A program made the translations under genes and the position numbers. The notes beneath the pieces are model-generated. The model ran no database searches. It was not told where the DNA came from and saw only the letters and a program-made list of their open reading frames with translations. A stretch of 64,000 bases of DNA from assembly GCA_017416185.1 (NCBI GenBank), contig JAFQDF010000013.1:124001-188000 (forward strand), read 5' to 3'. Numbering within the stretch: position 1 is the first letter of the stretch; every line of letters begins with the position of its first letter. Shown here one piece after another: positions 20,340-33,069 of this stretch. The DNA comes from Clostridia bacterium (GTDB taxonomy: Bacteria; Bacillota; Clostridia; Oscillospirales; CAG-272).

Positions 20340-20368
20340 TTGACAAACCCACTTCCTTATGGTATACT
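20340..20368 (+). promoter_or_regulatory. Promoter of ylxM-ffh
   Basis: TTGACA, 17-bp spacer, TATACT. The roughly 115-nt leader begins with two hairpins, CTGTAAAG/CTTTACAG (20369-20391) and GCGGTC-aca-GACCGC (20392-20406). Confidence 0.8.
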
Positions 20369-20490
20369 CTGTAAAGCAATTCACTTTACAGGCGGTCACA
20401 GACCGCAGCGACAAGTGGATCTCGTTCCCCGTAGACCTTTTATGGCTCACACGATGGAATGCGAGTAGAAATCGAACAAGGAGCAAGGTT

Positions 20491-20829
20491 ATGGACTACA
20501 ACAAAAACGTCAACACTTCCCTCCTTATCGACTTTTACGGTGATATGCTGTCCGAAAAGCAGCGCGAGGCGATGGAGCTTTATTATAACGAAGATCTTTC
20601 CCTTGCCGAGGTTGCGGACATCACGGGCTTGACAAGACCCGGCGTTCGTGACAGACTGATGAAGTCCGAGGCGATCCTTCGTAACCTTGAAGAAAAGCTC
20701 GGATTACTCAAACGCTTTGAGGAGATGACAAGTGAGATCGAGCTTATAACAAAAGAGCTTGAAGCCCACAAAAACGGAAAGACCGTTGATTTAGACGATA
20801 TTATAGACAGATTAAAAAAATTATCGTGA
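20491..20829 (+). CDS. ylxM: YlxM/p13-like DNA-binding protein
   Basis: 112 residues from the ATG after AAGGAGCAAGGTT. A sigma-70 region 4-like helix-turn-helix (LSEKQREAMELYYNEDLSLAEVAD then GLTRPGVRDRLMKSE) is followed by a C-terminal coiled coil. In Firmicutes it stands before ffh, as here (9 bp apart), and is thought to modulate the signal recognition particle. Confidence 0.93.
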   Translation: MDYNKNVNTSLLIDFYGDMLSEKQREAMELYYNEDLSLAEVADITGLTRPGVRDRLMKSEAILRNLEEKLGLLKRFEEMTSEIELITKELEAHKNGKTVDLDDIIDRLKKLS

Positions 20830-20838
20830 GGTAAAGAG

Positions 20839-22173
20839 ATGGCCTTATTTGGAAATCTGTCGGATAAGCTGGCAAATGCCTTTAAGAGTTTCAGAAGCAA
20901 GGGCAAGCTTACCGAGGCGGATGTCCGTGCGGGAATGCGAGAGGTTAAGCTTGCACTTCTTGAGGCGGACGTCAACTTTAAAGTAGTTAAAGAATTTATT
21001 AAAAAAGTAACCGAGCGTGCCGTAGGCTCAGACGTACTTGAAAGTCTGGTGCCGGGGCAGATGATAATAAAGATCGTAAACGAAGAGCTGACCGCACTTA
21101 TGGGCGGCACACAGGCAAAGCTGACCATAGCCTCCGCTCCTCCCACCGTCATAATGATGGTCGGTCTTCAGGGCTCGGGTAAGACCACACATTCCGCAAA
21201 GCTTGCGGGAATGTACAAAAAGCAGGGCAAAAAACCTCTCTTGGTAGCCTGTGACGTTTACCGTCCCGCGGCTATCCAGCAATTAAAGGTCGTAGGCTCA
21301 CAGCTTGATATCCCTGTATTTGAGATGGGTGATAAGGCAAACCCCGTTGACATCTCAAAGGCGGCAATAGAATACGCCAAGAAAAACGGTAACGATATGG
21401 TGTTCATAGATACTGCAGGCCGTCTCCACGTAGACGAGGAGATGATGCAGGAATTAAAGAACATCAAGGATACGGTAGATCCCACCGAGATACTTCTGGT
21501 AATAGACGCGATGTTAGGTCAGGATGCGGTAAACGTAGCGGAGAGCTTCAACGATCTGCTTGACGTTACGGGCGTTATCCTTACCAAGCTTGACGGTGAC
21601 ACCCGAGGCGGTGCGGCACTGTCTGTACGCCACGTTACAGGCAAGCCCATCAAGTTCGTGGGTACCGGTGAAAAGCTCGATATGATCGAGCCCTTCTACC
21701 CCGACCGTATGGCATCGAGGATCCTTGGTATGGGCGATATGCTCTCTCTTATCGAAAAGGCGGAGCAGGCTTTTGATGAAAAGAAGGCAGCCGAGCTTGA
21801 AAAGAAGATGAGAGAAAACTCCTTCACACTTGAGGATTATCTCGATCAATTCAGGCAGATAAAGAATATGGGCAGTATGGAGCAGCTTCTCGGTATGATG
21901 CCGGGAATCAAGCCCGGAGCCTTAAAGGACGCCAAGATAGACGAAAAGGCTATCGACCGCGTAGAGGCAATAATCCTCTCTATGACCCCAAAGGAGCGAA
22001 ACCACCCCGACATTATCGACTTCAAGCGCAAAAGAAGAATTGCGGCAGGAAGCGGTAACACCGTCGAGGAGGTAAACAAGCTGCTCAAGCAGTTTGAACA
22101 GACCCGCAAGATGATGAAACAGTTCTCAAGCGGTAAATTCGGCAAAAAGGGTAAATTCAAACTTCCCTTTTAA
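20839..22173 (+). CDS. ffh: Signal recognition particle protein Ffh
   Basis: 444 residues. N domain 1-90; GTPase with G1 GLQGSGKTT at 109-117, DTAGR, TKLDGDTRGGA; Met-rich M domain from about 300 (LLGMMPG, MMKQFSSGKFGKKGK) that binds 4.5S RNA and signal peptides. It targets nascent membrane and secreted proteins. Confidence 0.98.
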   Translation: MALFGNLSDKLANAFKSFRSKGKLTEADVRAGMREVKLALLEADVNFKVVKEFIKKVTERAVGSDVLESLVPGQMIIKIVNEELTALMGGTQAKLTIASAPPTVIMMVGLQGSGKTTHSAKLAGMYKKQGKKPLLVACDVYRPAAIQQLKVVGSQLDIPVFEMGDKANPVDISKAAIEYAKKNGNDMVFIDTAGRLHVDEEMMQELKNIKDTVDPTEILLVIDAMLGQDAVNVAESFNDLLDVTGVILTKLDGDTRGGAALSVRHVTGKPIKFVGTGEKLDMIEPFYPDRMASRILGMGDMLSLIEKAEQAFDEKKAAELEKKMRENSFTLEDYLDQFRQIKNMGSMEQLLGMMPGIKPGALKDAKIDEKAIDRVEAIILSMTPKERNHPDIIDFKRKRRIAAGSGNTVEEVNKLLKQFEQTRKMMKQFSSGKFGKKGKFKLPF

Positions 22174-22217
22174 ATAAATAAAATAAAAAATTAAAACATA
22201 TTTTGGAGGAAATCAAA

Positions 22218-22463
22218 ATGGCAGTTAAAATCAGACTTAAGAGAATGGGCGCAAAGAAGAACCCCTTTTACCGTGTAGTTGTTGCTGACTCTCGTTCTCC
22301 CCGTGACGGCAGATTCATCGAGGAGATCGGTTACTACAACCCCATGACCAACCCTGCAGAGGTTAAGATCGACGCAGAGAAGGCAAACAAGTGGATCGCT
22401 GACGGCGCACAGCCCACCGAGACCGTTAAGGCTCTTCTTAAGAAGGCTGACATCGTAAAGTAA
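22218..22463 (+). CDS. rpsP: 30S ribosomal protein S16
   Basis: 81 residues from the ATG at 22218 (GGAGGAAATCAAA upstream). The sequence opens [19 protein letters not shown] and contains the [20 protein letters not shown] segment typical of S16. It follows ffh in the usual Firmicute order. Confidence 0.98.
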
Positions 22464-22472
22464 GAGGTCATA

Positions 22473-22712
22473 ATGGCAGAGTTGAAAACAATTCTTGCCG
22501 ATATGGTCAAACCCATCGTTGTCTACCCCGACCAGGTGGTTATAACCGAGGAGGTAAAGGGCGACACCGTCACCCTCACCCTTAACGTTGAAGCATCTGA
22601 TATGGGCAAAGTGATCGGCAAGCACGGCAAGATCGCCAGAAGCCTTCGTCTCATAATGAAGGCAGCCGCTACCCAGTGCGGCAAAAAGGTTAACGTAGAA
22701 ATACGCGACTGA
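22473..22712 (+). CDS. khpA: KH-domain RNA-binding protein KhpA
   Basis: 79 residues, one KH domain with the GxxG loop in VIGKHGKIARSLR. It partners with KhpB in other Firmicutes. It follows rpsP by 9 bp. The transcript then ends at a strong terminator, so rimM, trmD and rplS, which usually follow, are not here. Confidence 0.95.
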   Translation: MAELKTILADMVKPIVVYPDQVVITEEVKGDTVTLTLNVEASDMGKVIGKHGKIARSLRLIMKAAATQCGKKVNVEIRD

Positions 22713-22813: not shown

Positions 22814-23059
22814 TTAATCTTCGTCCTCATCAATTTCTTCTACCACAATTTGGTATCGGCGATCTTCATCCACCGTAACATCGAAAAGCAAGAACATTGT
22901 TTTACAGGCTAAGTCCCATGCCACATCATCCATATCATAAATCCCTTCGCCTACAAGCTCATCTACGAACGCGCCAACCTCTTTCTTCTTAATATATTTG
23001 TTCTTTTTCTGGGAATCAAAAAACAACTTATTTTCAAAATAAATATAGAACTTATACAT
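22814..23059 (-). CDS. Hypothetical small acidic-tailed protein, 81 aa
   Basis: No family recognised. The start is the ATG at 23059, 8 bp after GGGAGA; an ATG two codons upstream is too close. It begins with a short hydrophobic/aromatic strand (MYKFYIYFENKLFF), then a Lys-rich stretch, and ends in an acidic tail (EEIDEDED). It has a strong promoter of its own and lies between khpA and the phage island; whether it belongs to the island is unclear. Confidence 0.6.
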   Translation of the reverse strand: MYKFYIYFENKLFFDSQKKNKYIKKKEVGAFVDELVGEGIYDMDDVAWDLACKTMFLLFDVTVDEDRRYQIVVEEIDEDED

Positions 23060-23119
23060 ACACATATTCTCCCTTCGGTATACTGTTGATTCTTTCCGGT
23101 ATGACACAGATTCGACCTA

Positions 23120-23250: not shown

Positions 23251-23282
23251 AAAAAAGTCACAGTATATGCTGTGACTTTTTT
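23251..23282. terminator. Terminator at the downstream end of the phage island
   Basis: AAAAAAGTCACAG-tatatg-CTGTGACTTTTTT, 14 bp after the last phage gene stop. Confidence 0.85.
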
Positions 23283-23295
23283 ATTTAAAAATATT

Positions 23296-24006
23296 TTATC
23301 CGTACAAAAGCTTCTTCAAAGCAATATCATAATCAAGCTCCTTATGATAGTTGTCATAATCAAGCTTGGCTAAGGCAAGCTCCAAGTCTCTGTCGCTGTA
23401 ATAATCGCTGTTTTCAAGCTTGGCAACCGAGAGTATGTAATCGGTCAAAGCCTTATACACGTCAAAATCATAATCGTTATCATACTCATATACCTTGCGG
23501 TAATAATCCATTGCGTCCTTATTATCCTGAACGGTATCACGATAGCTTTTATACTCCTTTGTATCAAGAGCGTCAAGCATATCTGCTTTTTCCCGCAGGC
23601 TTTTTTCAGTGTCGGTATATCGGTCATACGCCCTGCCCTCAAGCTTGGGTACGATCTCATTAAGCTTATCAAGATAGCCCTGATACGCCTGAGAGCCTGC
23701 GGTAACTCCGTAGGAGGAGCCGTAACCTCCCGTTTTCGATGCAGCCTGAGCCACCGTATCCCTCATAGCCGCCTCACCCTGCTTTTTATACATATCCGCA
23801 TACTGACTGTAAAGCTTGTCGGTATTGATATTATATTCAAAGGGCTCACGCTCAAGATATTCTCTGAGCAGCTTATCACGCTCTTTGGAATACTCACTTT
23901 TCGTTTTCAGTGGCATCATCACATCGGTATGAGAGCCCCTCTGCACAGGCTTCAAAAGTCCGTACAGCTTGTCAGCGGTTATGTTTGAAAGTCCTTTGAT
24001 CGCCAT
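23296..24006 (-). CDS. Phage island protein, possible internal/ejection-type protein, 236 aa
   Basis: Not recognised by family. The ATG follows AAAAGGAGGAAAAA. It is helical and Tyr/Asp/Lys-rich, with a central Gly/Ser/Ala-rich segment (SKTGGYGSSYGVTAGSQAY, about residues 90-110) and C-terminal repeats around DYDxxL. This composition resembles small internal or ejection proteins at the end of podovirus-like head modules; that role is inference from position (last gene of the module). Confidence 0.62.
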   Translation of the reverse strand: MAIKGLSNITADKLYGLLKPVQRGSHTDVMMPLKTKSEYSKERDKLLREYLEREPFEYNINTDKLYSQYADMYKKQGEAAMRDTVAQAASKTGGYGSSYGVTAGSQAYQGYLDKLNEIVPKLEGRAYDRYTDTEKSLREKADMLDALDTKEYKSYRDTVQDNKDAMDYYRKVYEYDNDYDFDVYKALTDYILSVAKLENSDYYSDRDLELALAKLDYDNYHKELDYDIALKKLLYG

Positions 24007-24160
24007 TTTTTCCTCCTTTTCTGTTATAGGAATCGGTCATATTCTCCTCATCCAGATTTTCAAGTATATAATTAAGTCTGTCTGTAAGGTAATTGAGATA
24101 CTCACATATCTCCGCACCCGAGGCATCCTTTTTTATACGTTTAATATTACTGTCAGCCAT
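23972..24160 (-). CDS. Small phage island protein, 62 aa
   Basis: Overlaps the upstream 648-aa gene by 8 bp and the downstream gene by 35 bp. The N-terminal half is a short amphipathic helix (NYLTDRLNYILENLDEENM); the C-terminal end is basic. Such overlaps are common in phage late operons. No function can be assigned. Confidence 0.6.
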   Translation of the reverse strand: MADSNIKRIKKDASGAEICEYLNYLTDRLNYILENLDEENMTDSYNRKGGKNGDQRTFKHNR

Positions 24161-26099
24161 TTTCCCTTACCTCCTCTGTTTCCTTGGTCAGCGCATACAG
24201 GGTCATAGCACCGCTGCCCTCCATCCTTAATCTGAAATAATCGCATCTTCTTGGGAAGACGGTTATTCTGTTACTGCCTCTGATATGGGGTCCGAAGCGG
24301 CCTATCTCTGTAAAATCCTCACCGTCATAGGATATATACAGTCTGCTGTCCTCATCGCAGCTTGTATCAAGGGAAAGCTTGCGGAGATACTTTTTGTCGG
24401 TGGAATAGGATATATCTCCCGTTTCCCAGCTCCAGTCGCGGGTAAGCTCCCGTGCTCCGATAAGCTCATATTTGTAGGGTATGCCTTTATCAAGGGTAAT
24501 GAGACTCGCGATCCTCCCGTCAAAGGATACTGCAAGTGTAGCGTCGGGGTAGCTTACACAGCCGATTATCCTGTCGGTTTCGGCTCTGTGCCAGATATGG
24601 CGTTTAATGTCATAGATATACTGTACAGGCTTATCCTCCACTAATCCGGATACGTACAGTATTTCCCCCTCACCGAAGAGAACAGCCGAGCGAATACCCC
24701 TTATGTCATCTCCCAAATCGTGGGATATACACACAGCGGAGGCACCGTTGTAGGCATATACACCGTCGCTTGATATGTAATAGAGAACGTCTCCGGTAAC
24801 ACAAAGACCGTCGGGACTGTGAGCGGGAACTCCCCTTACTGAATAGCTGTTAAGGGTAAAGGCGGCAGGTCTTGAGCCACTTATCACTATCATCTCACTC
24901 TCCTTGAAAAACACAGGCGAGCCAAGATAATTACAGCAGGCGGTAAAGTCCCCGGGTGAGCCCACACTCACCGCATAGCTGTCTCCGGACAGTCCCTCAA
25001 AAACACTGAAATTCCGCGCATTACCCAGCTCGCTTGCATATATCTCACGGTTACTGTTGGAGCAACCCCACACACGGTTAGCTCCCGTACAGATAAGATC
25101 AAGAGGGGGCATACAAGCAGATACGCTTCCCTCGATAAGGGGCTGCAGATTCCCCGGATTATCTATTTTTATATCACTGTAGCCTATATCGTTTGTGGGA
25201 TAGCTCATTGCGGCAAGTATCTTGTCCATATCGTCAAAAACAGGTATTTCCTCGGTGATATAACGGCCCTCCTCATCTCTTTTCTCTATACGGACAAATC
25301 TGTCAAGAGCTTCAAAATGCCTTACCGACCAGTTCCAGTATTTCAGATCCTTTAAGCGTACATAGTCTCCCTCTCTGAAATATCGGTAGCCGTCACCCAC
25401 CTCAAGCCTGAGTCTGACAGAGGTAACGCTCTGCCATATATTCTTTTTAGGATCGGTATCCTTGTGTATAAGTCGGTAATATTCAAGATATTTTGCAAAT
25501 ATCGCTCCTTCCTCGGCATCGTTGGGGAACTCTGTGTCTTCCGATCCCGTGTAAAAGCTTGAAGGCTCGATCATATCACCGTATATAACCGAAAGAGCTG
25601 CTGTTCTCTGATTATAGTCCGGGTTTATACGTGCGGGCTCTATCTCAAGGGTTCTTCCCATAGGGGCAAGCCCTGCCATAGGAGAAGGATTCATCGGATC
25701 AAATTCAAAGGCCTTGTCCTTTTTTATCAAAAGGGTCTTTGAATTGAAGTTTACGATATTTTCCTTTGAGATATCCTCATAAAAATCAAAGTTAAGAAGC
25801 CATTGGTCCCCCTTATACAAAGAATGCAGTGTAGGGGCATCCTCTCTCATAGGGGCTATATGAAAGATATCTCTGTTCAGAAAAAATCTTGGTATTCCCA
25901 CCGTGGGACGCAGATAGCTGTCAAGCTCATAACGTACAGGCATTGCCGAAAGGGTGGGATATGCCCGTGCGCTGAGATTACAGGTATCAGAAAGCTCCCC
26001 TTCATCCACTGTCTTACCGCGGTTAATACCCTTAAAGCAATCGACCCTTTTTCTTTTTATGCTTCTTTTGTTTATCTCGGGAAGATACATCAACGCCAC
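24153..26099 (-). CDS. Large phage structural protein, probable tail/stabilisation beta-propeller type
   Basis: 648 residues with no signal peptide, strongly beta-rich. From about 320 to 560 there are recurring short strands with GDxxYYISSDGVYAY, GEGEILYVSGLV and similar patterns, suggesting a propeller-like fold such as P22 gp10-type portal-plug proteins. It follows the head-tail adaptor candidate with 10-bp overlap. The structural role is well supported by position; the exact fold is inference. Confidence 0.62.
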   Translation of the reverse strand: MALMYLPEINKRSIKRKRVDCFKGINRGKTVDEGELSDTCNLSARAYPTLSAMPVRYELDSYLRPTVGIPRFFLNRDIFHIAPMREDAPTLHSLYKGDQWLLNFDFYEDISKENIVNFNSKTLLIKKDKAFEFDPMNPSPMAGLAPMGRTLEIEPARINPDYNQRTAALSVIYGDMIEPSSFYTGSEDTEFPNDAEEGAIFAKYLEYYRLIHKDTDPKKNIWQSVTSVRLRLEVGDGYRYFREGDYVRLKDLKYWNWSVRHFEALDRFVRIEKRDEEGRYITEEIPVFDDMDKILAAMSYPTNDIGYSDIKIDNPGNLQPLIEGSVSACMPPLDLICTGANRVWGCSNSNREIYASELGNARNFSVFEGLSGDSYAVSVGSPGDFTACCNYLGSPVFFKESEMIVISGSRPAAFTLNSYSVRGVPAHSPDGLCVTGDVLYYISSDGVYAYNGASAVCISHDLGDDIRGIRSAVLFGEGEILYVSGLVEDKPVQYIYDIKRHIWHRAETDRIIGCVSYPDATLAVSFDGRIASLITLDKGIPYKYELIGARELTRDWSWETGDISYSTDKKYLRKLSLDTSCDEDSRLYISYDGEDFTEIGRFGPHIRGSNRITVFPRRCDYFRLRMEGSGAMTLYALTKETEEVRENG

Positions 26100-26452
26100 C
26101 TAACCCTTCCCTTTTGCTTCGGCATATGGCTTCTTGTATAATACCGTGAAAATTCGCTCATCAGGTTATTATAGAGTATCATATTGTTGGTATAGCCGGA
26201 TATTTCCGCATTTGCCAAGTCAATCTGGGCAAGAAGATAGAAGCTGTAGAGATCAGAATACATATCCGGAACAAAAAGCAAGTCCTCCTCGGTAGTACGG
26301 TGAATGAACTCACCTCCGTCGCAATGAGAAGAGATTATATTATTATAAATATCCTGCTCCAATATATCCAGTCTGTGTATATATTCATCAGAGGATACCG
26401 AATAACCGGGTCTAAGCTTTTCCACCCTTTTTATAACGTCTGATATAGTCAT
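26090..26452 (-). CDS. Probable head-tail adaptor (phage connector), 120 aa
   Basis: Begins MTISDVIKRVEKLRPGYSVS and is largely helical, with a mid-section (FVPDMYSDLYSFYLLAQIDLAN) like the gp6-type connector proteins that bind below the portal. It lies between capsid and tail-type genes, where connectors are encoded. Confidence 0.65.
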   Translation of the reverse strand: MTISDVIKRVEKLRPGYSVSSDEYIHRLDILEQDIYNNIISSHCDGGEFIHRTTEEDLLFVPDMYSDLYSFYLLAQIDLANAEISGYTNNMILYNNLMSEFSRYYTRSHMPKQKGRVRWR

Positions 26453-26494
26453 ATTTCTCCTTTCATTAAAAGGGGAGGCACGCCTCCCCTCTGA

Positions 26495-26704
26495 TTAACG
26501 TATAGTTTCCATATAGCTTACCGCTCTATCCTCCGCAAGCTCTGAGTTGCGAAGCACGTCGTAGGCGCACAGAGGGATGGTAACCTCACATCCGCGCTTT
26601 ATACGCCAGGAACGTTCACCTACAGATACGTACACCGCATCACTGCTTCCGCTTATACGGGGAAGTCTGACGGTAACACTTCTTTCCTTTGCGCTCTTTC
26701 TCAT
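26495..26704 (-). CDS. Small phage protein next to the capsid gene, 69 aa
   Basis: A compact protein with an N-terminal basic tail and about five short strands (VTVRLPRISG, VYVSVGERSW, CEVTIPLCAYDVL). It follows the capsid gene by 9 bp. It could be a head decoration or joining protein; the family is not recognised. Confidence 0.6.
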   Translation of the reverse strand: MRKSAKERSVTVRLPRISGSSDAVYVSVGERSWRIKRGCEVTIPLCAYDVLRNSELAEDRAVSYMETIR

Positions 26705-26713
26705 AACGGCTCC

Positions 26714-27922
26714 TTAGTTTGCAACGTCGGTGCCGCTGTAGGAGGAGCCGCACTCAAAGCGTACAAGTCTTTCATCATAGAGGATGGCCGCAGCGTGAGC
26801 AGCCTTCCAGCCCACTGTAGAACGCTGATTAAGAGGATCGGCAGTACCTGCAGAGCCCTTACTCTTAACGATCATCTCCATAGCTCCGCCGGAAAGCTCT
26901 ACTCTGCCGTAAGCATCACGGCCGAAGAAGATACAGCCGTATACCGCACAGCCCTCCTTACCGCCCTCGCCGGGATAGATGGTGGTACCCGCCTCAACAA
27001 TGATCGCCTCGTCAAGAGTGATCTTGTTGGAGCCGGAGATACCCTCGATCTTATACTTCTCACCGTTGATGAGAATGTACCTGCCTACAAGGCTTTCATC
27101 AGCGGAGCCTACATCAACGTTATTGAGCTTACTTGAATTTGCCGTCTTTACTGTAAGGGTTCTCTGTTCACCTGCGAGGTTCTCACCGCAGAATATGGGA
27201 GCCTCGTTGGACTCGATAAAACGAACACCGTGGAGCTCACCTATCTCACCATTGAAAATCTCGGTAACCGATGCATACTTGTGTGCCTCGATCCAGCCAT
27301 CGGATTCACGAAGATCCTCGGATACGGAAGGATGGATGATACAGATATACTTACCGTTTATCTTTGGGGTCTTATTCTTCTTAAGCTTGGTCACAACCTT
27401 ATTCACCGCACTTGCAGTAAGCTTGGCATCAGAATCAAGTTCGTATCTAAATGAATATCCCTCGGGGAAGGATACGTTCTTACCCTTACAGAGCTCGTTA
27501 CGGGTAAGGGTATCAAGGGTAAGACCGGCCTGAGCACCGTGTTCCTCCGTACAGGAGAGGATAACATCGTCAACAGCGGTCATATCCAACATATCGGAAA
27601 CGGTGGTATAATCACCGTACTGCTCCACTTCAGCCTCCACGGTCTTCATGGTAAGAGTGTTACCGTCGGGAGTCACACCCTCCTCCAGAGGAGCGGTAGC
27701 CTTACCGAAGGTGTCAAACTTACGCCACTGGACCTTCTTGCCGTTACCCTCGGGAAGGGTCTGAACCTTACCGAACTGGTTAAAGAACAGCTCCTCCTTG
27801 GCGTTTTCAAGAAGCTCGGTATTATAATACTGCTGCATACCCTCTGTAAGGGTAGCAGTCTCGGTGGTCTGTGTATTGGCATCCGCAAATGCCTGAATAT
27901 CAAATTCTCTTGTGTTAATCAT
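26714..27922 (-). CDS. N4-gp56-family major capsid protein
   Basis: 402 residues; start ATG after GGAGGTAAAT. The segment from residue 28 on (EGMQQYYNTELLENAKEELF, then KKVQWRKFDTFGKATAPLEEG and QYGDYTTVSDMLDMTAVDD) is the signature of the N4-gp56 capsid family with HK97 fold. The N-terminus contains FDIQAF-ADAN around residues 7-16, which resembles the site cut by the cysteine protease Prp in ribosomal protein L27, and a Prp gene lies in the same operon. An insert near residues 235-310 may be a surface domain. Confidence 0.9.
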   Translation of the reverse strand: MINTREFDIQAFADANTQTTETATLTEGMQQYYNTELLENAKEELFFNQFGKVQTLPEGNGKKVQWRKFDTFGKATAPLEEGVTPDGNTLTMKTVEAEVEQYGDYTTVSDMLDMTAVDDVILSCTEEHGAQAGLTLDTLTRNELCKGKNVSFPEGYSFRYELDSDAKLTASAVNKVVTKLKKNKTPKINGKYICIIHPSVSEDLRESDGWIEAHKYASVTEIFNGEIGELHGVRFIESNEAPIFCGENLAGEQRTLTVKTANSSKLNNVDVGSADESLVGRYILINGEKYKIEGISGSNKITLDEAIIVEAGTTIYPGEGGKEGCAVYGCIFFGRDAYGRVELSGGAMEMIVKSKGSAGTADPLNQRSTVGWKAAHAAAILYDERLVRFECGSSYSGTDVAN

Positions 27923-28019
27923 ATTTACCTCCTATAATTGGTTTATATATAAACTTAATTCATATCGGGAGCTCCAAAAAGCTTGAATTCAGTAGCTCAC
28001 GATACAGTGGGTCTTGTCG

Positions 28020-28754
28020 CTACCAGAGAATCTTTTCTCCCCGGCGGACTCTCTTTTTTATTTCAGAACGCTGGGCTCTGGTCAGATTTTTGGGGTCCTG
28101 TGTTATCATTACGGTGGAACCACCGCTGACTGCATTTTCGGCAGGACGGCTTACCCTTGATGCCATTGATACAGCCAGACGCTCCTCGGCTGTAGCGGCT
28201 GCATACTGCATAGCCTCGGTAACAATGCGGTCGTGATATTTCATCTCATATGCACGGCGGGGATCCCCCTCTGCCGCCGCCATAAGCTTTACAAATACAG
28301 GGTCACGAAGCTCGGACAGGATATCAAACCCGGGATAAAGCTCTTTTGTCTGTTCCACTCTTGCAGCAAGCTCTTTTACACCCTCGACAACATGAGGAGG
28401 GAAGCCGGAAGTGCCCTCTGCCGCATTTTCCTTCTGTGAGAAAGCCTCACCTGCTTCAGCTTCGGCTGCACTCTTCTTTCCCTCAAGCTCTTCAATTATC
28501 TCAGAGGGCTCGTTTGCTTCTATGCCCATCCTCTGTGCCAAACCGTTAAGCGCATCGGTGATCTCTGTCAGTCTGCGCTTGTCCTCTGCGTGATTTTTGA
28601 GCCTTTGCTTTACAATAGACTCAACCTTTTCCTTGTATTCGTCACGGTAATCTCCCTCAATAAGCTCATCAAAGCTTATCTTTTCTGTCTTCTCCCCGGC
28701 GTCGGGAGTTTGTACGCTCTGTACCTCGCCCGTTATATTTTCAGCTTCCAACAT
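28020..28754 (-). CDS. Phage scaffolding protein
   Basis: 244 residues, highly charged and helical (EYKEKVESIVKQRLKNHAED, IIEELEGKKSAAEAEAGEAF), with a basic C-terminus (RSEIKKRVRRGEKILW) as in scaffolds that bind the capsid floor. It stands between protease and capsid genes, the usual place. RBS AAAGGAAAA. Confidence 0.8.
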   Translation of the reverse strand: MLEAENITGEVQSVQTPDAGEKTEKISFDELIEGDYRDEYKEKVESIVKQRLKNHAEDKRRLTEITDALNGLAQRMGIEANEPSEIIEELEGKKSAAEAEAGEAFSQKENAAEGTSGFPPHVVEGVKELAARVEQTKELYPGFDILSELRDPVFVKLMAAAEGDPRRAYEMKYHDRIVTEAMQYAAATAEERLAVSMASRVSRPAENAVSGGSTVMITQDPKNLTRAQRSEIKKRVRRGEKILW

Positions 28755-28832
28755 ATATGTTTTCCTTTCTTTTTCTGTAGAGCATCTCCACGGGGCTTAT
28801 GAGACACTTTTTACTACGATGTCTGTATTATA

Positions 28833-29108
28833 TCACACACAAACATCCGTTCGGTAGGGTACCACCCTGAGGTTTTTTGGAAATTTTTCAGAAATCATGA
28901 AAAGTCCCTGTAAAACAGCATCGTATAACCGTCTGTCATCCTTTACTCTTACAGTCTCCCCGGATATTTCACATCTACAGGCGTTTATGAGGGTATAGAC
29001 CAGTGTAGATACTCCTGCACAGACAATATCCTGACCGTAAGGGGCGTAATCTGCGTGACCCATAAGGGTAAGACTAAGGTTATCGCTGTCATAAAATGCC
29101 TCTATCAC
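28833..29108 (-). CDS. Prp-type cysteine protease in the phage head operon
   Basis: 91 residues. GHADY with His18 and CAGVSTLV with Cys30 form the catalytic pair of the Prp (YsxB) family, which removes the N-terminal extension of ribosomal protein L27 in Firmicutes and also processes phage 80-alpha head proteins. Here the gene overlaps the portal gene by 4 bp, so it is most likely the phage's own prohead protease. Confidence 0.88.
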   Translation of the reverse strand: MIEAFYDSDNLSLTLMGHADYAPYGQDIVCAGVSTLVYTLINACRCEISGETVRVKDDRRLYDAVLQGLFMISEKFPKNLRVVPYRTDVCV

Positions 29109-30781
29109 GGCATCACACTTTCTGCGGCAGTCGGCATAGACAGACTTACCTTACCGCCTGTAGGAGGATCAGATACAGCTATACTGCCCGCCCTTTCGGA
29201 TATACGCTGCATCACAGATTCCTTTCTTGAAAAATCCATCATTTCAAGACACCCAAGAGCTGCATCCGCCCTTGCGGGCTCAAAAAATCCGAGATTGTAG
29301 AACTGAAGCGCCAGCTCGTTCTGAGACATCTTGGAATAGGGATTGGCACGCTGAGCGGAAACATCTATATCAAAGACAGGAGTACGCATACCCATATCAA
29401 TACCGAAGTAATCTCCCTGAGTGCGGGGACACAGACCCTTGTTTGAATATGAGGTAAAGGATATCCTGCCCATATCACCGATAATACGAAATTGTCTGGG
29501 AATGGTGTAGAACTGACGGATAAGCTCGATGCATTGAAGTATCATCTGCTTATATGCCATGTACGAGCCACGGTTAGAATCTCTTGACATCTTTCCCCCT
29601 GCCTCCTGCATTGCGGCAATGGCAGATGCAGCCGTAACCCCGGAGGAGGTACCGCCGTTGGTGGCATCACGGTTACCCGAGGTCTCCTTCAACTCGTCTA
29701 TTTTGTTATTGAGTATGGAAACATATATGGGATTAACGGGATTAACGTCTATCTGGAGTATAGAATCTCTGCCGAGATTTCCGTTGGTATGTACAAAATC
29801 CTTTGTCCAGTCGGCAAATTCCTCCTCGTTTACAGCACCGTCACCGCGTATAAAGTATCTGGGCTTTGCGGCAAGCATTGCATTGTTGATAATAGAATGA
29901 TTAAGAAGGTCTATCTGGGTCTGGGCATCCTTGCCTATATCGATATATCCGTAGCCGCAGGGAGTACCCTCTATAGAGAAAAGGTTGTCAAACACAAAGG
30001 GGTAAAGCCCGTGCTCATACCAACCGTAAGGGTAGCTTGCAGGGTCGTTTTCGGTAGAAAAAAGCAGGGTATTGCCTGTAAATTTACAGAAATGAAGCAG
30101 ACCTCCCTTGCGGTAATACCAATCCACCACCATAGCCTTGTCGGTAGTATCAACGTTATCGTCATAGCGGTATTTGGTAATATCGATATCCGTAGAGCCT
30201 ATCTCTTCATCGCTCAGTCCGTACTCGTTTTTCAACTCCTCGCGATCACGCAATGTAACGTAGAAAAGGTTCTTTGAGTCCTGAATATCGTTTATACCGC
30301 TCTCCCAGAAAAGGGACAGCACGTCCACCTTGCGGATACTGATATCCCCCAGTCCCTGATTCTTTGTCTGATCCCAGAATATTCCGTATACTCCGGTACC
30401 CTGCTTGAGCTTGTACCACTGAAGCTCGGAATATACCCTTTCAAACTCATTCTGCTCAAGAACCACCGGAATAATGGAGGACAGCTTTTTTGCTTCCTCA
30501 ACATCGTCCTCGCTTCTGGGGAGAAGATTGGGCTCGGGAAAGGCATCCATAGCATCCGCATGCTTGGATACGACAACGTTCCAAAGCCAGGCTGAGGCGG
30601 GCTTATATTCGTTTTTATCAGAACGTAGCTGCTCCCAATGTCTCAGCTTCCACCAGTCCTCATTGGCAACAAGCTTTTTTTCAAGATTGGCCTTATCGCT
30701 CTTATACCGCATAAGAGTCTGTCTGGCTCTTATGATTTCGTCCTTGCCGATGGGAACAAGGACCTCCTTTTTATTTTTCAT
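29105..30781 (-). CDS. Phage portal protein
   Basis: 558 residues with helical clip/wing pattern and the region DIGKDAQTQIDLLNHSIINNAML followed by a long helix near the C-terminal half. The segment ATNGGTSSGVTAASAIAAMQEAGGK (about 375-400) is typical of podovirus-like portals. AAGGAGAG precedes the ATG, and both ends overlap neighbours by 4 bp. Confidence 0.85.
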   Translation of the reverse strand: MKNKKEVLVPIGKDEIIRARQTLMRYKSDKANLEKKLVANEDWWKLRHWEQLRSDKNEYKPASAWLWNVVVSKHADAMDAFPEPNLLPRSEDDVEEAKKLSSIIPVVLEQNEFERVYSELQWYKLKQGTGVYGIFWDQTKNQGLGDISIRKVDVLSLFWESGINDIQDSKNLFYVTLRDREELKNEYGLSDEEIGSTDIDITKYRYDDNVDTTDKAMVVDWYYRKGGLLHFCKFTGNTLLFSTENDPASYPYGWYEHGLYPFVFDNLFSIEGTPCGYGYIDIGKDAQTQIDLLNHSIINNAMLAAKPRYFIRGDGAVNEEEFADWTKDFVHTNGNLGRDSILQIDVNPVNPIYVSILNNKIDELKETSGNRDATNGGTSSGVTAASAIAAMQEAGGKMSRDSNRGSYMAYKQMILQCIELIRQFYTIPRQFRIIGDMGRISFTSYSNKGLCPRTQGDYFGIDMGMRTPVFDIDVSAQRANPYSKMSQNELALQFYNLGFFEPARADAALGCLEMMDFSRKESVMQRISERAGSIAVSDPPTGGKVSLSMPTAAESVMP

Positions 30782-32166
30782 ATATCTACTCTCCTTATAT
30801 TTGAATATTTGATTTTAGGATTCATATTCAGGGGATCATCGGCAGGAAGGGATACGGTTTCGGACAGCTTAGGAGTAATAGGCCTGGTCATGCAGAAATA
30901 TCTTGCCTCATCTGCCACGTGATCCTCGAGAGATGTATCAAGATCCTCGGGATCATTCTGACTGAAGGTAAGCTGCGGTATGGTACGGATAAATGCCTTA
31001 CAATTATCAAAAACATACATCATAGGGTATCCGTTCTCGTCAAAGCTCAGTCTGTAATGCAGCTGCATCCAGCCGGGGATACGCTTGTTGTCTCCCGGGG
31101 TGAACCATATTCCCATTTTCGCTCCCGCATCGGCGATACTGTCTCCGCGGGAGGTATCCCATATAGAGGGGTCGGCAACACCCTGAATGCTTCTGCCCTT
31201 AAGCTGGGGATGCTCTCTTTCTATCCTTGCCATCTCGGAAAACTGTCTTTCAGGAGTCCAGCGAACACCCTCGTTGGGATTAGCGGTACAGCCGTACAGC
31301 TCGAGGATACGGTATATAACACCGTCATAGTCCACCGCCCACCAGCCCACTGAAAAGGGCTTGTTATACCCGAAGTCATAGGAACGGTAAATGCTCCATC
31401 CCCTTGGAATATCAAAGGAAGGTATAACGTGGGTAAAGCGTCTGTCGGAATATCCTTCAGGATTGTCAATGAAGTCCTCAAAAAACTGCCCCTCAAAGAT
31501 ATTCCAGTTACCGTACCGCCAGGCGTCCCTTAATTTCGGCGGCAAGGATTCAAGCTGTCGTATATATTCGGGGTCTGCCTCCATAAGAGCAGTATTATCG
31601 GTAACAAGGGACTGAATAAAGGCATAATCGGCGGGGTTCTCTCCCTCGTTATATCTGCGGTCTATAAACAACCTTTTGATATAGGAATGTCCCTTTCCTC
31701 CGGGGTTACAGGTATAGTAGACCCTCTTGGGATAATCATTCACCGCACGCACACAGGCAACAATAGCTCGCATCTGATATTCCGAGAGCTGCGTTGCCTC
31801 GTCGAGAAATATCACATCATATTCCACACCCTGAAGCCTGTCAAGGTCCTTATCCGAGGCACAGTAGGAGAAGCTTACCGTAGATCCGTTAGGAAAGCTC
31901 ATTATCTTTTCTTTATCACTGTATCTGACTATTCCGAAAAGCTCGCGGCGCAGGATATTTATATGGTTGTTATACAGCTCTGGATAGGTACGTCGGACTA
32001 TAAGTATTCGTATACCGGGATACCTCATACACATAAGCTTTGCTTTTGCCCTCACAGCCCAGCTCTTTCCACCGCCACGGGCACCGCCGAAGGCTATATG
32101 ACGGTTATGCTGTTTCATAAACAAAAGCTGCTTTTCGTTGGGAGTTCCTATTATCATCTCTCTCAT
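30778..32166 (-). CDS. Phage terminase large subunit
   Basis: 462 residues. ATPase Walker A GGARGGGKS at 27-35 and Walker B VIFLDEA at 118-124; the nuclease domain follows, with acidic residues in RSYDFGYNKPF and VADPSIW. The DNA-packaging motor and headful/cos nuclease. It overlaps the small upstream gene and the portal gene by 4 bp each. Confidence 0.93.
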   Translation of the reverse strand: MREMIIGTPNEKQLLFMKQHNRHIAFGGARGGGKSWAVRAKAKLMCMRYPGIRILIVRRTYPELYNNHINILRRELFGIVRYSDKEKIMSFPNGSTVSFSYCASDKDLDRLQGVEYDVIFLDEATQLSEYQMRAIVACVRAVNDYPKRVYYTCNPGGKGHSYIKRLFIDRRYNEGENPADYAFIQSLVTDNTALMEADPEYIRQLESLPPKLRDAWRYGNWNIFEGQFFEDFIDNPEGYSDRRFTHVIPSFDIPRGWSIYRSYDFGYNKPFSVGWWAVDYDGVIYRILELYGCTANPNEGVRWTPERQFSEMARIEREHPQLKGRSIQGVADPSIWDTSRGDSIADAGAKMGIWFTPGDNKRIPGWMQLHYRLSFDENGYPMMYVFDNCKAFIRTIPQLTFSQNDPEDLDTSLEDHVADEARYFCMTRPITPKLSETVSLPADDPLNMNPKIKYSNIRRVDI

Positions 32167-32477
32167 TCGGCAAGCTCCTTTATCTCTTCGGACAGAACCA
32201 CCGTGATCCCCTCGTCCTCAGCCTCCCCGTCATTTTCCCGCAGCTCCTTTATGACTGCTGCAATGACCTTTAATGAGGAAGTATCCACTCTGCCTTTCAC
32301 TATACTTATCTCCTGCGTCTCAACCACCCTCTCACTCACAGGTTTTTTACCCTCGTCATCATATTCCACGTTTTTTTCCTTGATATGAGTGGTAGCAGTA
32401 TAGCTGTCAAGCTCGTCTATTGCTCTGTCTATTTTCTCTATCAGCTTAAGTGTCAAAGCCTCGATCTTTTCCTCCAT
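32163..32477 (-). CDS. Terminase small subunit candidate, 104 aa
   Basis: The start is the ATG at 32475-32477 after GGAGGTGATCG; an upstream start would lack an RBS. It is a helical, acidic protein with a long first helix (EKIEALTLKLIEKIDRAIDEL), a variable middle and a C-terminal VDTSSLKVIAAVIKELREN segment. The last pattern recurs in short proteins before terminase genes in Clostridial prophages. DNA binding is not visible, so the TerS role rests on position. Confidence 0.62.
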   Translation of the reverse strand: MEEKIEALTLKLIEKIDRAIDELDSYTATTHIKEKNVEYDDEGKKPVSERVVETQEISIVKGRVDTSSLKVIAAVIKELRENDGEAEDEGITVVLSEEIKELAE

Positions 32478-32597
32478 TCGATCACCTCCGTATATATCAT
32501 AACAGAACATATGTACGGATTTAAAGGGTACCACCCCCGGAAATTTTCAATTTTCCTGACTTTTTTCAGCTGAATTTGTCAAAGCGCACTTTCAAAC

Positions 32598-32723: not shown

Positions 32724-32760
32724 TCGAGGTGTAGCGGCGGGGAGCCCCCGCAGGCAAACT
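32724..32760 (+). repeat. tRNA-Pro 5'-fragment unit B
   Basis: TCGAGGTGTAGCG matches the tRNA-Pro 5' end, then GCGGGG-agc-CCCCGC and AGGCAAACT. Confidence 0.65.
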
Positions 32761-32815
32761 ATTTTGTTTATTGAAACTTGAAGTTTGTTGTCCTACCTTT
32801 AATTCAATAAAATAT

Positions 32816-32964
32816 CGAGGTGTAGCGCAGTTGGGGACGATCCCGAGCGCCGACAGTGTCGGATTCAGCGAGGGTGAGGAGTGGCAGCAACACAGCGATT
32901 GCAGAGCAAACAACGGCTTGCGATAGCAGAGCTGATGTTGCAACAGGGAGCGCGCCAGTTTCGG
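32816..32964 (+). pseudogene. Interrupted tRNA-Pro copy (unit C)
   Basis: Positions 32816-32834 equal the first 19 bases of the intact tRNA, and 32949-32964 (AGCGCGCCAGTTTCGG) equal its D-stem/anticodon part. Between them is a 114-bp insert located exactly in the D-loop. The 3' half is missing. Confidence 0.75.
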
Positions 32965-32993
32965 CGGCTACCACAAAACAAATAACAAAAAAT

Positions 32994-33069
32994 CGAGGTG
33001 TAGCGCAGTTGGTAGCGCGCCAGTTTCGGGTACTGGAGGCCTGGAGTTCGAATCTCCACACTTCGACCA
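32994..33069 (+). tRNA. tRNA-Pro(CGG)
   Basis: 76 nt with encoded CCA (33067-33069). Acceptor CGAGGTG pairs with CACTTCG (one G-U). D arm GCGC-AGTTGGTA-GCGC; anticodon stem CCAGT/ACTGG with loop TTCGGGT, anticodon CGG at 33027-33029; T arm TGGAG-TTCGAAT-CTCCA. A terminator follows at once. Confidence 0.95.

Follow-up and report, generated by a model that had tools for sequence, protein, structure and literature searches.

Overall, after comparing six related genomes, we consider it likely that a compact virus-derived island is the operon for heads and DNA packaging of a gene transfer agent (GTA) of the podovirus type, derived from a short-tailed temperate phage that would have entered the ancestor of the genus, and inherited vertically ever since. 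The island spans positions 23296-32477 (9.2 kb, minus strand) of the window, the 64,000-nt stretch of DNA analyzed here, which belongs to the genome, designated G000, of an uncultured bacterium of the ruminant gut. Six species have long retained these genes of a short-tailed virus for its shell and for DNA packaging, and this retention, together with fibre and lysis genes supplied in trans behind the same promoter box, makes it probable that they produce virus-like particles carrying the bacterium's own DNA between cells. The genus was sampled by six genomes (G000 to G005), one per species, all of which appear to be metagenome assemblies and three of which derive from goat or water-buffalo caecum.

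All 11 ORFs of the island are open and form a compact short-tailed capsid and packaging module, which confirms the eleven intact minus-strand genes reported by the first-pass annotation. The operon opens with a 104-aa TerS (32163-32477), which lacks the N-terminal HTH according to an HTH profile comparison with prophage relatives and gave no match in PHROG and NCBIfam searches; its start at 32477 is supported by a conserved box just upstream (32496-32532). It is followed by TerL (462 aa, 30778-32166; PF03237, PF04466, phrog_979), a P22-like portal (558 aa, 29105-30781; PF16510, phrog_156), a Prp-type cysteine protease, presumably the prohead/scaffold protease (91 aa, 28833-29108; PF04327), a scaffold-like protein (244 aa, 28020-28754; phrog_13908) and a major capsid protein (MCP) of the N4-gp56 family (402 aa, 26714-27922; TIGR04387, phrog_1357). 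The MCP scored 250 bits against TIGR04387 (cut-off 60), and these matches back the identities first proposed for the five genes from TerL to the MCP. MCP residues of about 245-320 (window 26900-27200) form a variable insert between two conserved parts and are absent from many family relatives. Downstream of a 69-aa conserved protein (26495-26704; phrog_15239) lie a 120-aa protein (26090-26452; phrog_12105) and a 648-aa protein (24153-26099; phrog_511), previously described as a connector and a tail-type protein. The AlphaFold model of the former (pLDDT 90) matched the Sf6 gp7/P22 gp4 adaptors in Foldseek with a probability of 0.98 but an E value of only 0.07, suggesting that it is likely a head-tail adaptor of this type, whereas the model of the latter matched the T7 gp12/P22 gp10 nozzles with E values down to 1e-16, and its predicted fold identifies it as a tail nozzle of this type. 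The last two genes encode a 62-aa conserved protein (23972-24160), which is kept in related islands, and a 236-aa candidate ejection or internal protein (23296-24006), for which family searches gave no match; in related prophages, its homologue is encoded after the nozzle. The palindrome AAAAAAGTCACAG...CTGTGACTTTTTT (23252-23286, minus strand) looks like an intrinsic terminator that closes the operon, although it is not listed by a consensus terminator scan; a general scan for terminators and promoters gave background levels only. ORF, domain and PHROG searches found no integrase, recombinase, repressor, replication or lysis gene inside or directly beside the island, as had been noted before.

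The housekeeping character of both flanks was also upheld, with ffh-rpsP-khpA on one side of the G000 island and tRNA-Pro and glnA on the other. The ylxM-ffh-rpsP-khpA flank (20359-22712, plus strand) is a conserved anchor that adjoins the island in the same orientation in all five genomes whose contigs are long enough. The TerS-side flank, in contrast, varies between species: tRNA-Pro(cgg) (32994-33069, plus strand) and glnA are found in G000, the efp region in G003 and G004, a metallophosphoesterase in G002 and G005, and, in G001, a gene group that occurs about 20 kb further along in the G000 window. Because this flank differs between species, tRNA-Pro is not a shared attachment site, and we rejected it as a candidate. 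Just upstream of tRNA-Pro, fragments of the tRNA-Pro gene are repeated (32814-32836 and 32950-32966, within window 32725-33069) and look like a rearrangement or insertion scar at the tRNA. Between khpA and the island lies a 97-aa ORF (window 22814-23107), of which the island loci in the other genomes of the genus contain no relative. Near the TerS side of the G002 island (L092 122-6179) is a type III CRISPR-Cas-looking locus with Csm-like ORFs and a Cas2-like ORF, recognized by sequence inspection only.

The island module is present in all six genus genomes with identical gene order, and the khpA locus of G049, from the nearest sampled (sister) genus, has no island. Across the six species, 66 of 66 island ORFs are open, the sole shortened one being the G003 scaffold, which has lost about 70 residues in frame. 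Pairwise dN/dS values were mostly 0.05-0.4, with synonymous distances near 1; TerL and portal gave 0.05-0.17 and the capsid up to 0.23, and values of up to about 0.48 occurred in small or fast genes such as Prp in distant pairs, where synonymous sites are near saturation. In a tree of TerL and portal, the six islands grouped together to the exclusion of phages and prophages (support 97/94), with full prophages from the same genus as their nearest outgroups. Moreover, the island genes and ffh-rpsP-khpA-ylxM gave an identical five-taxon topology, ((G000,G004),(G001,(G002,G005))). The shared locus and gene order, open frames, low dN/dS and congruent trees therefore establish that the island is vertically inherited and under selection, and not a prophage in decay or the outcome of recurrent insertion. 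Among the origins considered by the first-pass annotation, a domesticated remnant under selection is thus supported, and the frameshifts or relaxed selection that it had named as counter-evidence were not found in the island genes.

The first-pass annotation had also proposed comparing the locus in related genomes, where a full prophage at this site, with an integrase and lysis genes nearby, would have been counter-evidence. Full prophages carrying the module do exist within the genus, but they occupy different loci and occur in addition to the island, so that related phage and island coexist in the genus. One of them, at about 28 kb to 64 kb of contig G002:C45, is the same element as a 38 kb IMG/VR contig and encodes a repressor, replication-type genes, a fibre, an endolysin and a 187-aa TerS. 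The island contrasts with this prophage and does not form the contiguous genome, with integrase, repressor, replication and lysis genes, by which an active prophage is recognized. A search of the G000 genome found no second homologous TerL. The module genes are also shared with gut Oscillospirales podoviruses, and the capsid is homologous to that of Pagevirus-type podoviruses (Bacillus phages Page, Pony and Palmer; about 26% for Page). However, the phage contigs are bigger (many 38-46 kb), and the island proteins are shortened, with portals of 556-581 aa and scaffolds of 177-257 aa, compared with a median of 666 aa for phage portals and with 312 aa for phage scaffolds.

TerS is shortened as well, from 187-189 aa with an HTH in the prophage relatives to 104 aa without one in G000. 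A profile of the phage TerS N-terminal HTH scored 62-65 bits in two genus prophages, 57 in the G005 island and 42 in the G002 island, but below zero in G000, G001, G003 and G004 when three forward frames were searched over 0.9 kb around and upstream of TerS. Judged by these profile scores, the DNA-binding domain of TerS has been lost in four of the six species, and its distribution on the host tree points to two losses after domestication. The TerS of RcGTA likewise has no DNA-binding HTH domain (PMC6854486), and the putative TerS proteins of known GTAs have no detectable DNA-binding domain (PMC11841831).

Upstream of TerS, all six species carry GGTACYCT, followed after about 20-24 nt by TGTTATkAT, a box that we write as GGTACCCTACCG...TGnTATAAT. 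The search pattern GGTACYCT-N16-26-TGnTATnAT found 30 sites in the six genus genomes against 0 for a reversed-pattern control, and 3 off-consensus sites in 57 genomes of other genera against 2 for the control. Six sites precede TerS, three the scaffold gene (G000, G003 and G004), nine replication initiators and one the fibre/lysis operon of G000; the 11 others have no clear phage-type gene downstream, and at least two of these are off-consensus and lie inside coding sequence. In the window, box 1 (GGTACCCTTTAAATCC...TGTTATGAT, 32496-32532, minus strand) lies about 20 nt 5′ of the TerS ATG, and box 2 (GGTACCCTACCGAACGG...TGATATAAT, 28827-28863, minus strand) lies before the scaffold gene. The nine boxed initiators are Lin1244_N or DnaD-like helicase loaders, assigned by phrog_2562 or phrog_8489 matches for those tested and by sequence similarity for the rest. 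Isolated boxed phage-type replication initiators were seen at L195/L215, L179, L189, L182, L176, L181, L201 and L186, and two box copies beside a dnaC-like gene (L187, L202) have no ORF left. Another copy (L200, G000:C24:67377) precedes, by about 280 nt, two small ORFs that by their sequence look like a barnase-type RNase and barstar. A prophage of G003 has GGGTGATTACCCTACCG, a variant of the box, upstream of its TerS and of its fibre; an ancient late promoter of a phage is therefore the probable source of the box, with spacing that has changed in the domesticated set. A T-box riboswitch was considered for GGTGGTACC and dropped on inspection, because it matched only in part and phage-type genes share the box as a promoter element.

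Although the island itself has no fibre or lysis genes, these functions are not absent but encoded in trans. A boxed operon II (G000:C10:84974-89063), which shares the contig of the G000 island and lies about 58 kb away from it, carries genes for a tail fibre (phrog_5240), a 93-aa protein, a holin-like protein of 58 aa and an endolysin (Amidase_2). The holin-like protein is so called from its size and hydrophobicity, as no function is known for its PHROG. The four-gene cassette is present in all six genomes, apart from the capsid operon and with a GGTACYCT box upstream in each. The lack of lysis and replication functions implied by the first-pass annotation is confined to the locus, and the genome as a whole has such genes. 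From the shared box we infer that operons I and II are co-regulated. Across species, the holin-like protein has 57-65 aa, the endolysin is Amidase-type in G000, G003 and G004 and M23-type in the other genomes, and the fibre is hypervariable outside its N-terminus, with only the first ~150-210 aa aligning between species. In the holin tree, the operon II proteins of the G000/G003/G004 clade group with the G003 prophage; therefore, operon II has been exchanged with phages, and strictly vertical descent of this operon is not supported. A metallophosphoesterase lies beside operon II in G000, G003 and G004 and beside TerS in G002 and G005 (L213 4985-6373, L246 5514-6740, L092 7949-9175 and L095 70-1296), a placement that hints that the two operons were once neighbours.

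We envisage that a factor encoded elsewhere in the genome activates the box in a subset of cells. Capsids would then assemble with scaffold, portal and Prp, and TerL, working with a TerS that has no DNA-binding domain, would package host DNA into them without specificity. The short tail would be completed by adaptor, nozzle and ejection protein, fibres would be supplied from operon II, and the holin and endolysin would lyse the producer and release the particles. In the most speculative step, the boxed phage-type replication initiators may raise the DNA supply before packaging. Non-specific packaging is less clear in G002 and G005 because their TerS keeps the HTH. As expected of a GTA, the cluster is fixed in its lineage, congruent with vertical descent, under selection and free of integration and excision genes, and lysis genes, which in GTAs are often unlinked, are available in operon II, boxed in six of six genomes. 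The suggestion of a GTA-like particle made by the first-pass annotation thus gains support from the loss of the TerS domain in four species and from the fibre/lysis operon in trans under the same box.

The most serious alternative, though an unlikely one, is that the genus makes a PBSX-like killer particle, which would contain DNA and bind and kill relatives but deliver no usable DNA, with competition as the source of selection. The hypervariability of the operon II fibre outside its N-terminus would be expected of a targeting part, and the same alternative has been raised for FpGTA of Faecalibacterium (PMC12946183). However, killing needs less than the whole packaging and short-tail injection chain, and TerS, TerL, portal, adaptor, nozzle and ejection-like protein have all been kept under purifying selection. 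An anti-phage role, in which the packaging proteins poison the assembly of related phages, has very little to commend it: related phages do infect the genus, and a dominant-negative effect is conceivable, but no defence-family (PADLOC) match reached a meaningful score, the full virion set is kept, and the co-selected fibre and lysis operon would be unneeded.

Other explanations concern the origin of the island. Repeated independent insertion of similar phages at a khpA or tRNA-Pro hotspot would fit the full prophages of the same lineage in the genus and the tRNA-Pro that adjoins the island in G000, yet it is highly improbable, as the island tree equals the host tree, the islands form one clade that excludes the prophages, the constant side is that of khpA while the tRNA side varies, and no integrase is present. 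We give hardly any credence to a decaying remnant caught before its loss, which the missing integration, replication and lysis genes at the locus and the shortened G003 scaffold might suggest, when all frames are open in six species at synonymous distances near 1 and promoter boxes are retained at both operons. The capsid-forming satellite entertained by the first-pass annotation, a helper-dependent element (cfPICI-like) that borrows prophage functions, fared no better and appears extremely unlikely. Structural genes without mobility genes, and a related G003 prophage that uses the similar box GGGTGATTACCCTACCG, count in its favour, but G000 has no related helper because it has no other homologous TerL. 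Moreover, adaptor, nozzle, fibre, holin-like and endolysin genes are the bacterium's own, integrase and satellite replication or regulator genes are missing, and descent is vertical.

A second capsid and packaging island was found beside mazF in another genus of the family (L129 and L157 in G038, L171 in G140). It encodes a tail protein of the DUF859 type and a 115-aa TerS without this HTH, and the promoter before its TerS, GTTGGGTGACTAYGGGGG, is conserved between the two genomes. In the tree, its TerL is placed in a phage clade other than that of the first island, which points to an apparently independent domestication; a promoter-pattern search of G038 and G140 found no unlinked copy or partner operon. 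TerL matches of about 38-44% identity occur in many genomes of the order, among them at least 30 of family f20 and at least 21 of family f17, mostly one per genome, and three f20 loci examined (L282, L284 and L285) are compact podovirus-type islands without obvious mobility genes. GTA-like loci may possibly be widespread in the order. We also entertain, as a doubtful but conceivable extension of the GTA reading, a regulon scattered across several loci and defined by the box, in which activation of the Lin1244_N and DnaD-like initiators would coincide with that of the capsid, fibre and lysis genes, leading to amplification of host DNA before it is packaged; TerS would have lost its domain in parallel after domestication, and a similar domestication, of another phage, would have taken place in the second genus.

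GTA-like packaging has been reported in several Ruminococcaceae, Oscillospiraceae and Christensenellaceae (PMC12946183), and the general idea is therefore no longer new. What our data add is the shared box, the stepwise loss of the TerS domain and a demonstration of vertical descent, none of which we found in the available portion of that report, and also a second, apparently independent island in another genus. The podovirus-type GTA candidate is thereby extended to another genus, with vertical inheritance demonstrated. The candidate box ties the split operons together and can be used for finding missing parts and the regulator. Additionally, the graded series of TerS proteins with and without the HTH can be set against sister prophages that still infect the genus. 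Together, these features open a way to test how a phage turns into a GTA and how common such DNA exchange is in ruminant and human guts.

Capsid-forming PICIs, too, are small chromosomal islands with genes for capsid and packaging, but our island has neither an integrase nor a satellite replication module, has no helper in G000 and descends vertically. BaGTA of Bartonella is linked to a phage-derived replication start by which host DNA is amplified. The phage-type replication initiators of our genus resemble it in carrying the GTA-type box, but they are unlinked and their role is putative. PBSX of Bacillus subtilis is domesticated and packages host DNA, as we infer for the island, but its genes occupy one large locus and its tail is long and contractile, whereas the island is short-tailed and its loci are split. 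RcGTA has a siphovirus-type tail, in contrast to the podovirus-type nozzle and N4-gp56 capsid of the island. Nevertheless, RcGTA and its relatives in Alphaproteobacteria share with the island a vertically conserved head-tail cluster and, in four of our six species, a TerS without an HTH (PMC6854486).

The closest likeness is to FpGTA, with which podovirus-type GTAs in gut Gram-positives were first reported (PMC12946183, Nat Commun Jan 2026), where PBSX is given as the other Gram-positive GTA-like system. FpGTA consists of a 10.5 kb operon I and a separate 5.5 kb fibre/lysis operon, and its particles have ~40 nm capsids that package ~8.5 kb of random host DNA (PMC12946183). Like the island in G000, its operon I encodes a TerS without a DNA-binding domain, TerL, portal, scaffold and capsid, and, like operon II of G000, its second operon holds fibre, holin and endolysin and is unlinked. 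Both systems are podovirus-like and belong to Gram-positive gut anaerobes, and FpGTA operon I is ubiquitous in its genus. However, the genera differ, and particles are known for FpGTA whereas those of the island are predicted. The shared box, the boxed replication initiators and the HTH-retaining intermediate are features of the island's genus that are not described for FpGTA in the accessible text of PMC12946183. We class the island as one that would work like an FpGTA-type GTA, likened to it by gene plan from the description of FpGTA.
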